Below are positions 11,867-13,800 of a stretch of DNA of 64,000 bases, one piece after another; within the stretch, counting starts at the first letter, position 1; each line of letters starts with the position of its first letter. The DNA lies in contig JAUQZC010000010.1 in NCBI GenBank assembly GCA_030587435.1, forward strand, positions 1-64,000, written 5' to 3'. The position numbers and the translations under genes are program-made. The notes beneath the pieces are model-generated. The model made no database searches, had not been told where the DNA came from, and saw nothing but the letters and a program-made list of their open reading frames with translations. The stretch is from Candidatus Baldrarchaeota archaeon. Its GTDB lineage: Archaea > Asgardarchaeota > Baldrarchaeia > Baldrarchaeales > DXJG01.

Positions 11867-12727
11867 ATGGAAGAGAATCTAAATCGGATGGTTCAGGAAA
11901 TTCGTAGTAAGTTTGGAATTGTGGGTAGGGAACGTGAGTTACGTAAAGCGTTAGCTGCGAAGCTGGCTGGAAAACATCTGCTTCTTGAAGGTGAAGTTGG
12001 AGTTGGGAAGACTACTATAGCTTTAGCCTTAGCCAAGTTTTTTAATCAGCCATTTTATAGAATTGATGGTGATGAAAGATTTACTGAAACGAAACTTGTG
12101 GGCCATTGGGAACCTCCCTTGGTTATAGAGTTTGGTTATGATGCTGAGAAAAGTTTTGTACCAGGGCCCTTAGTTAGAGCTATGTTAGAGGGAGGGATCC
12201 TATTTATTAATGAATTGAATAGATTGCCTGAATCTACTCAGAATGTTTTACTTCCTGCCATGGATGAAGGGCAAATTATTATCCCCAGGCTTGGTGCTGT
12301 CAAAGCTAAGCCTGGATTTTACATTATTGCTACTCAAAATCCTGAAGAGCATGTTGGTGTGACTTCCTTAAGTGAAGCACTGCGTGACCGTTTTGTATGG
12401 ATTAAATTGGATTATCAAACTGAAGAAGAAGAAAAAGAAATTACTTTGCTGAGATCGGGTTGTAATGATCCGAAGATAGTTGATTTAGCTGTTAAAATAT
12501 GTAGGGCAACGAGAGAACATCCTGAAATTAAACGAGGGGCATCAGTAAGAGGGGCAATAGACCTTGCAAGTTTGGTTTCTAAACTTAATTCTCACAGTGT
12601 AGATGAGTGGGTTGATGCAGCAATAATGGCTCTTGGAACAAAAATAGTGTTAGAAGATGATGCTGGTAAGCCGATTGAGAAAATAATTCGAGAAATAGTA
12701 GTCTCAGTTTTTCAAAATTTTCAGTAA
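11867..12727 (+). CDS. MoxR-type AAA+ ATPase
   Basis: 286 aa. Walker A GEVGVGKT at residues 42-49, Walker B region GGILFINELNRLPE, sensor 1 ATQNPEE. MoxR ATPases act as chaperones with von Willebrand factor A partners in metal-centre insertion or complex assembly. The frame ends with CAA AAT TTT CAG TAA; A AAT TTT is a -1 slippery heptamer, and a hairpin follows 10 nt later. A -1 shift there enters the VWA frame and would yield a MoxR-VWA fusion of about 644 aa. GGTGTTGAGCAGGAG precedes the ATG. Confidence 0.9.
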   Translation: MEENLNRMVQEIRSKFGIVGRERELRKALAAKLAGKHLLLEGEVGVGKTTIALALAKFFNQPFYRIDGDERFTETKLVGHWEPPLVIEFGYDAEKSFVPGPLVRAMLEGGILFINELNRLPESTQNVLLPAMDEGQIIIPRLGAVKAKPGFYIIATQNPEEHVGVTSLSEALRDRFVWIKLDYQTEEEEKEITLLRSGCNDPKIVDLAVKICRATREHPEIKRGASVRGAIDLASLVSKLNSHSVDEWVDAAIMALGTKIVLEDDAGKPIEKIIREIVVSVFQNFQ

Positions 12728-12753
12728 CTGAGGGAATTCGAGAACGAATTCCC
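12715..12753 (+). promoter_or_regulatory. candidate programmed -1 frameshift signal
   Basis: Slippery heptamer A AAT TTT at 12715-12721 in the moxR frame, moxR stop TAA at 12725-12727, spacer 12722-12731, then the perfect stem-loop GGGAATTCG (12732-12740), loop AGAA, CGAATTCCC (12745-12753). Order and spacing match -1 frameshift cassettes. An experimentally shown archaeal case, the Sulfolobus solfataricus alpha-fucosidase gene, uses the close relative A AAT TTC. Confidence 0.55.
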
Positions 12754-13800
12754 GATGACCAAAAACCGCTTATAATTACCAATAAAATAAATGAAGAAAA
12801 AATTTTAGAGAAAGAAATAGAAATTGGAGGAAAACTACCCGAATATTACCGTCATTTAGCTAAAGATCTCGACTATGTTTCAATAAGAAGACTAGCTGAA
12901 GTCGCCATCAAAAAATATAATATTTCAGCACTTCTAGGCCTTGCGAAGTCCAACCTTTATGCAGTTGTTGACGCTTTAACCGCTTCGGATAACTTAGAGG
13001 TTATAGCGAGAAAAATCGCCAAAAACCCTGAAACCGGATATGCGTTTTTCTTTTTAATTAGAAGAAACATACCAGAAAAGTATCGTCGCTTATTCATTAA
13101 ATTCCTCAAAATTTCTATACTTAGAAGTGCATTAGGAAGACAAGTTAACTTCAAATCTGGGCCTTTTAGAAGAAAGGTAGAATATCAACCTTATTTAGAT
13201 GAATTTGACCTTGACGAAACTTTAGAGAAGTTTTTAGAACAAAGATATCTGAGTTACAGCGATGTTGTAGGAATTGAACGCGAAGAAAGAAGGAAAGCAG
13301 GAGTCTTAATACTTGATACTAGTGGGTCAATGCACGGAGAAAAAATAGTTGCAGCTGCCTTAGCCACAGCAACAATAGCATATCATATGAGAAATATAGA
13401 ATATTCAATAATTGTCTTTAATACAAGAGCAACCGTCATCAAGAAAATGAACGAAAGAAAACCCACCACGGTAGTCATAGAGAGGATACTTGAAACAGAA
13501 GCTGCAGGGTTCACAAACATAGAAGACGCAATGAAAAAAGCATTAAAAGAACTTAAGAAAAGTAAAATAAAGGAGAAATGGGCCATACTATTAACTGACG
13601 GTCTTTACAACAGGGGCAAAGACCCAAGAAAATTAGCATCTCGTTTCCCCAAACTCCACGTAATCGCTTTACCAACCAAACAACCCATAGGTATAAAAAT
13701 ATGCAAGCAAATAGCGAAACTAGGCCATGGGAAATTTACACAAATAAAAAGAGTACAAGAAACACCAAAAGCACTAATAAAAATATTAAAAAGAATATAG
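12722..13800 (+). CDS. VWA (von Willebrand factor A) domain protein without a standard start codon
   Basis: The frame is open from the moxR slip site to TAG at 13798-13800, about 359 codons, with no in-frame ATG, GTG or TTG before the internal ATG at 13330, which lies inside the metal site. Residues upstream of the VWA fold are helical (LPEYYRHLAKDLDYVSIRR). The MIDAS motif DTSGSM is coded at 13315-13332, and a later LLTDGL carries the MIDAS Asp. VWA proteins work with MoxR ATPases. Translation is probably by -1 shift from moxR; a non-standard start (ATT at 12736 or 12748) or an assembly indel are the alternatives. Confidence 0.8.

Follow-up and report, generated by a model that had tools for sequence, protein, structure and literature searches.

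A probable programmed −1 ribosomal frameshift between MoxR and VWA coding halves of a gene conserved in Asgard archaea

The DNA analyzed here, referred to as the window, is a stretch of 64,000 nucleotides from Candidatus Baldrarchaeota archaeon. It harbors a moxR gene whose end overlaps a second coding half with a VWA domain, located in the −1 frame with respect to moxR (Table 1). The VWA frame is open between positions 12679 and 13800 and contains no ATG, GTG or TTG until the Met codon at 13330, which lies immediately 3' of the MIDAS codons. An earlier note on this DNA had described this open frame without a regular start, together with the slippery heptamer, the moxR stop, the spacer and the hairpin with its AGAA loop, and each of these elements was confirmed on the window. 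Its statement that a −1 slip leads into the VWA frame also held on reading the codons: the fused product would comprise 285 plus 359 residues, that is 644 aa, and enter the second half through TCA GTA ACT.

Table 1. Positions of the predicted features of the moxR–VWA locus in the window.
Feature	Position	Strand	Remarks
moxR, AAA+ ATPase (AAA_5), 286 aa	11867..12727	+	0 frame; TAA stop 12725–12727
Slippery heptamer A AAT TTT	12715..12721	+	moxR frame; identical in L001 and L002
VWA half, −1 frame	12721..13800	+	359 codons after the slip; stop 13798–13800
10-nt spacer containing the moxR stop	12722..12731	+	
Hairpin GGGAATTCG-AGAA-CGAATTCCC, 9 bp, likely stimulator	12732..12753	+	
MIDAS codons DTSGS of the VWA domain	13315..13329	+	

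The neighbor genes gave no clue to a function. Across 56 loci, no ORF cluster besides moxR and VWA was common to more than 21 loci; the cluster found at 21 loci is positioned on the opposite strand over moxR, and the next one occurs at 14 of the 56. In the window, a tRNA gene with an intron-sized insertion is located immediately 3' of the VWA gene (13861–13984, + strand); it was matched by Rfam with 37.6 bits and not called by ARAGORN in bacterial mode. By eye, a stretch 5' of moxR (approximately 11668–11826, + strand) also resembles a tRNA gene, with at least one intron (GCCGGGG ... CCCCGGCGCCA), and was called neither by Rfam nor by ARAGORN on the window.

The two halves were also analyzed for their domain identity. 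Against Pfam, the MoxR half matched AAA_5 (E 2.8e-28, 99 bits) and AAA_3 (65 bits), both above cut-off, and the VWA half matched VWA_CoxE (E 9.1e-12, 45 bits; cut-off 26). The MIDAS residues DxSGS are present in all 131 junction genes introduced below, as DTSGS in 117, DASGS in 10 and DSSGS in four. NorQ was the top single-domain PDB match of the MoxR half with 61.6 bits. In a Foldseek search with the VWA model, ranks 1–3 (TMq 0.43–0.46) were occupied by NorQD complexes through their chain G, which was assumed to be NorD. In VIA-align, all 50 rows obtained with the VWA model were VWA domains other than NorD. Midasin came first in the PDB search (E 2.9e-44), but this value sums several domains; its best single domain reached 39.6 bits and thus scored below NorQ, which is why a claim of homology to Midasin was dropped. 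The best NCBIfam model for the MoxR half, GvpN, reached 87 bits against a cut-off of 267, and therefore no NCBIfam name was assigned. An identity as chlD or cobaltochelatase (TIGR02442, TIGR02031) was likewise rejected, with 43 bits against a cut-off of 779 and 33 against 500 for the MoxR half, and 21 against 779 for the VWA half.

Relatives of the locus were collected in several steps. In a first search, 47 of 59 relatives contained a match to VWA; at each of the best 30 loci, moxR directly precedes VWA, which is in the −1 frame. From a scan of genomes with named records, the best 80 of 121 loci (L031–L110) were used, of which 73 have VWA in the −1 and seven in the +1 frame; 77 of these 80 are titled as Asgard lineages and three as 'archaeon' only, and the closest are two Candidatus Baldrarchaeota with VWA halves 98% and 82% identical to that of the window. 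These loci overlap the other genomes sampled and are not counted in the set used below. A search across the phylum matched 154 of 227 genomes, the other 73 having no match at E ≤ 1e-30. The orthologue junction set consists of the window and 130 of these Asgard genomes, 131 in total; five members of family f16 and two of f12 (L111–L116 and L170) were handled apart, and 17 genomes with weak or partial matches were left out. Left out as well were L117, a second, more distant gene of genome G013 with a possible ordinary ATG start, and L118, a fragment without moxR. All junction counts take related genomes as separate.

Of the 131 junctions, 123, representing 18 GTDB families, have the VWA frame at −1 relative to moxR; the remaining eight, all from a single further family, f24, have it at +1. 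The frame break and the moxR stop are kept in all 131. The earlier note had named an assembly indel as a main alternative, and a sequencing indel or a gene in decay would likewise account for a broken frame in a single contig. However, the frame break recurs at the same junction in 130 other Asgard assemblies, which rules out an assembly error, and both halves are under purifying selection in comparison with L002 (dN/dS 0.07–0.08). The observed frame break is therefore real, and an indel or decay can be neglected for practical purposes.

The end of moxR is characterized by codons on which a −1 slip is expected. As a check, the earlier note had named an alignment of related genomes for the heptamer, and these genomes retain the slippery codons as well as the frame relation: within the last eight moxR codons, NNT followed by TTT, TTC or TTA occurs in 122 of the 123 −1 genes, the sole exception carrying A AAC CCT. 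NNT TTT is found within the last five codons of 119 of the 123, compared to a mean of 4.0 and a maximum of 9 in 200 null draws. When a strict X XXY YYZ heptamer is required in the last eight codons, 76 genes qualify, compared to a mean of 5.9 and a maximum of 14 in 500 null draws; in 15 of these 76, the last strict heptamer is T TTA AAN, which is not the proposed site. Among the 105 sites encoding Asp-Phe or Asn-Phe, the first codon is NNT in all 105 (83 expected) and the second is TTT in 103 (76 expected), with P < 1e-12 for each when the sequences are taken as independent. The site types are A AAT TTT/TTC, G GAT TTT, G GGT TTT, T TTT TTY and T TTT TTA, and the single cases are A AAC CCT in L158 and C CCT TTT in L159. 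In 55 of the 123 genes, at most 16 nt are available for the shift between the VWA-frame stop upstream and the stop of moxR. The heptamer A_AAA_AAR, which is typical of chlD, is the last strict heptamer in none of the 123 −1 genes and the shift site in none of them.

A counter-point is that G GAT TTT fails the strict X XXY YYZ pattern. Two plant viruses shift at comparable sites: pea enation mosaic virus uses G_GAU_UUU, with a stop 3 nt behind it, and BYDV uses GGGUUUU (PMC5009743, PMC4737148). Both have counterparts among the Asgard junctions, namely G GAT TTT and G GGT TTT. In family f3, synonymous variation nearly disappears: the site and the conserved codons following it show 0–0.26 and the seventh 0.51, compared with 0.73–0.76 elsewhere in the gene; the comparator for the later VWA columns is a codon alignment (0.76), which replaced poorly aligned columns (0.34). 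In f3 loci such as L171–L213, ATCGATGATTTC located 3' of the site is near-invariant, synonymous positions included, and despite this most f3 genes lack a strong hairpin.

The hairpin downstream of the site is more stable than expected by chance in the window. As RNA, 51 nt of the window fold with −15.3 kcal/mol compared to −7.0 for shuffled sequences (z −4.1; none of 200 shuffles as low), and the stem comprises 9 bp in L001 and 8 bp in L002. Over 128 distinct junctions, the 45 nt past the stop show a mean z of −1.02, and eleven other intervals range from −0.41 to +0.02. In an arm-swap test based on the 44 of 123 genes with a GATGA motif (14 families, one gene per family), the stem abutting GATGA has a mean length of 5.38 bp versus 3.38 bp with 3' arms swapped between families (none of 2000 as high). 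The pairing of the hairpin is thus kept across families while its sequence changes. This answers in part the check for compensatory changes named in the earlier note: pairing is retained despite sequence change, and many genes have no strong hairpin. A strong stem is missing in 65 of the 123 −1 genes, 62 of which were scored and three of which have no tested site, and families f2 and f11 showed no strong hairpin in the stem test.

The position of the stem relative to the site was determined in 120 −1 genes with the site [ACG][AG]T TT[TC], a definition adopted after the results of a first definition had been seen. A strong stem occurs in 58 of the 120 and starts exactly 10 nt past the site in 26 of these 58, and this phase holds with the moxR stop 0, 3 or 6 nt past the site. 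Counted by family, a strong stem at 9–11 nt is present in 7.5 of 16 families, compared to 0.6 in shuffled sequences, and 11 of the 16 contain at least one such gene. The first definition, which placed the slip at the T-rich codon pair nearest the 5' end, was rejected; with it, f1, f8 and some of f10 had different spacings. The two products might also arise during transcription, if RNA polymerase slipped on a T-run and produced mRNAs of differing length; runs of 6–8 T are indeed found in f15, f16, f17, f22 and f24. Yet the window offers four A and four T only, most f3 sites read G GAT TTT C, L158 carries A AAC CCT, and the codon-phased hairpins at 10 nt point to the ribosome, which makes polymerase slippage highly improbable.

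The other source of a second product would be a separate VWA protein with a non-standard or internal start, perhaps by reinitiation past the moxR stop with GAGG as Shine-Dalgarno site. Many orthologues have GAGG or GGAGG past the stop. In f15, f17, f20, f21 and most of f22, a start codon (ATG in most cases) occurs about 38–68 nt past the stop, and only one of the 123 −1 genes has none of seven start-like codons ahead of the conserved EI motif. In the +1 family f24, a VWA-frame start codon is found before EI in eight of eight genes, in seven of them as ATG at +10 or +13, and separate VWA initiation at these codons may occur in this family. Against a general use of such starts, no column before EI contains ATG, GTG or TTG in more than 28% of the 123 genes, and even the best column has I, L, P, R or F in place of Met in other genes. 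In 47 of the 123 none of these three codons occurs at all between the upstream in-frame stop and EI. With regard to separate VWA starts in relatives, which the earlier note had listed as evidence against its reading, no start codon is shared, although several families have the downstream one. The conditions named by the note that could be checked in relatives came out in favor of its interpretation. GAGG was rejected as Shine-Dalgarno site, as no shared start codon lies downstream of it.

Evolutionary rates were used to assess whether the region ahead of these start codons is translated. Between the window and L002, dN/dS of the VWA frame from +2 to +602, a stretch that contains no ATG, GTG or TTG in the window, is 0.08, and it is 1.06 and 1.56 in the other frames. 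In the best-sampled families f3, f17 and f22, the stretch from the moxR stop to the first plausible ATG shows values of 0.16–0.19, compared to 1.0–1.8 when read one base off. The four close sequences of f13 gave 0.36 versus 0.53 one base off, f15 is saturated, and the first 30 codons past the stop in the genus of the window gave 0.17–0.57, which is not clear-cut. Because dN/dS is low in the VWA frame before the first plausible ATG, the linker is very likely translated in this frame, and its translation needs ribosomes arriving from moxR or a non-standard start that is not shared. The second option would leave the slippery codons, and the hairpins phased to them, without a purpose, and the VWA frame of the −1 genes is open from the codon after the slip. 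The non-standard start, the other main alternative of the earlier note, is accordingly considered very improbable, given that the linker is under selection and that slip codons and phased hairpins are kept.

Not all relatives use the −1 arrangement. All eight f24 genes (L150–L157) carry TTT TTT CGG at the junction, where a +1 slip could move pairing from UUU to UUC, and a change from −1 to +1 shifting is possible in this family as judged from the junctions. The seven genes handled apart comprise five in-frame fusions and two +1 genes. In f16, which likely represents Njordarchaeales, L111, L112, L113 and L170 are in-frame AAA–VWA fusions and L114 is +1; in the distant f12, L115 is fused, with no T-run seen at the junction, and L116 is +1. 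The four f16 fusions contain NNY TTT TTT CGN at the junction, with stops in both other frames 1–9 codons behind, and are possibly a reverse arrangement by analogy to dnaX. A tree of 68 rows, a quick one with long branches, requires five changes between the −1, +1 and fused states, compared to 12.6 with labels shuffled.

Outside the Asgard archaea, records named Bathyarchaeota, Nitrososphaerales, Nitrososphaeria, Methanomethylicia and others contain fused AAA–VWA proteins with lengths of 589–623 aa. They come from a list of 120 of 288 proteins, and the fusions of Bathyarchaeia and Nitrososphaeria were compared at the protein level. Both halves of the window align in order to all 11 fused proteins compared. 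The junction reads FFR or FFH in each of eleven long fusions (P0093–P0103), which include the L113 protein and one protein named Njordarchaeales; FF is missing there in 98 of the other 109 proteins listed, including P0104. P0104, named Promethearchaeota, and P0105 are in-frame fusions without FF at the junction. Because the f16 and f12 fusions and P0104 are in frame, some Asgard members seem to have lost the frame break. In the genomes G026, G052 and G188, which encode fusions, no second close MoxR was found, the next best showing 29–33% identity; no second MoxR was found in G040, in which the gene is cut by the contig end. As these genomes lack a second close MoxR, and in view of P0104 and P0105, a free MoxR is not proved to be necessary.

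Taken together, the conserved −1 frames, the slippery codons, the selection on the VWA frame, the phased hairpins and the in-frame fusions make frameshifting very likely. On these grounds moxR and the VWA frame are, with high confidence, the two halves of one gene, with a programmed −1 frameshift at A AAT TTT and two predicted products, a MoxR of 286 aa and a fusion of 644 aa. The sequences directly show the elements of the site, their conservation, the selection on the −1 frame and the absence of a common start codon; the shift itself, its efficiency and the ring described below are predictions from sequence. A fraction of the ribosomes that pass AAT TTT would continue to the moxR stop and yield free MoxR. 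The other ribosomes would be delayed by the hairpin, which starts 10 nt further on; both tRNAs would then slip back by one base, and translation would continue through the VWA half. MoxR and the fusion could then assemble into one AAA+ ring with few VWA arms, comparable to NorQ carrying NorD. Slippage would in this way fix the ratio of AAA to VWA domains and hold arm and ring together.

Whether slippage indeed sets the MoxR:VWA ratio in the ring is an evenly balanced question; by analogy, a role in stoichiometry would fit the NorQ/NorD structures. The frameshift could also be real while the fusion alone is the working protein, in which case slippage would throttle or regulate the amount of fusion and set no ratio. 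The in-frame fusions of other archaea and of a few Asgard members are consistent with this, as are the fused f16 genomes in which no second close MoxR was detected. On the other hand, none of the 131 junctions has lost the moxR stop, although an indel could remove it, and the T-run of the fused f16 genes, with stops shortly behind it in the other frames, would remake a short MoxR. In addition, modeling of NorQ/NorD used six NorQ and one NorD (PMC9976466). A mere throttle is thus considered unlikely, without being remote. A wider reading, to which slightly less than an even chance is given, is that of a gearbox across the Asgard phylum: slippage would build MoxR rings with few VWA arms, and the same output of two products would be reached by −1 shifting, by +1 shifting, or from in-frame fusions on which slippage at the T-run into near stops can yield free MoxR again.

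The partner systems NorQ/NorD, CbbQ/CbbO and RavA/ViaA also combine a MoxR-type AAA+ protein with a MIDAS VWA protein. Their partners are encoded by two ordinary genes, whereas the Asgard fusion is predicted to arise from one recoded gene. In Midasin/Rea1, which has related AAA domains and is used here as an analogy only, there is one VWA (MIDAS) domain per ring. The closest precedent for the predicted gene is chlD, from which a frameshift produces a short AAA+ protein and a longer one that also includes the C-terminal half, as predicted for Asgard archaea. The chlD frameshift is reported in bacteria and archaea in −1 and +1 versions (PMC3711429, PMC9227772), with A_AAA_AAR as shift site (PMC5009743). 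In contrast to chlD, the Asgard sites are T-rich (GAT TTT, AAT TTT, TTT TTC), and the gene is kept across one phylum with related genes in −1, +1 and in-frame arrangements.

The DNA polymerase III subunit encoded by dnaX is an AAA+ protein. Its frameshift yields two sizes of this subunit, matching the stoichiometry of the complex (PMC3711429). The dnaX shift makes the short form, as is predicted for the fused f16 genes, whereas in the other Asgard genes the shift would make the long form. Among archaeal cellular genes, Sulfolobus fucA1 has a −1 shift, as proposed here for MoxR–VWA. The earlier note had given its heptamer as A AAT TTC; a 2021 review has A-AAA-AAT, refers to fucA1 as the only reported −1 case in Archaea while also citing viral and Mg-chelatase predictions, and describes the other Sulfolobales fucA1 genes as full length except in strain 98/2 (PMC8211752). 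Unlike this split enzyme, the Asgard site is kept across many families.

In the openly licensed literature, no description of this junction was found under MoxR or Asgard frameshifting. If the gearbox reading is true, the Asgard junction would be the first known case of a recoding device conserved throughout an archaeal phylum, here the phylum nearest to the eukaryotes. Slippage would then set the six-to-one count of AAA to VWA domains, which in Midasin is fixed because a single chain contains all domains. The gene also gives access to the question of how MoxR/VWA machines arrive at a defined subunit ratio. The signal occurs in a cellular gene in 18 Asgard families, with swaps of the heptamer, compensating hairpins and a change of direction, and this set of junctions allows archaeal frameshifting to be tested directly.

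In some public gene calls, the VWA protein has a late start. Among 91 proteins found in 7994 best candidates, P0056, the VWA protein of Promethearchaeum syntrophicum (protein only), has an annotated Met start that corresponds to Leu in L163 and L164, and P0075, a 98%-identical copy of the VWA half of the window, is listed at 264 aa. Because these calls start late, the fused product may be missing from the databases used in mass spectrometry.
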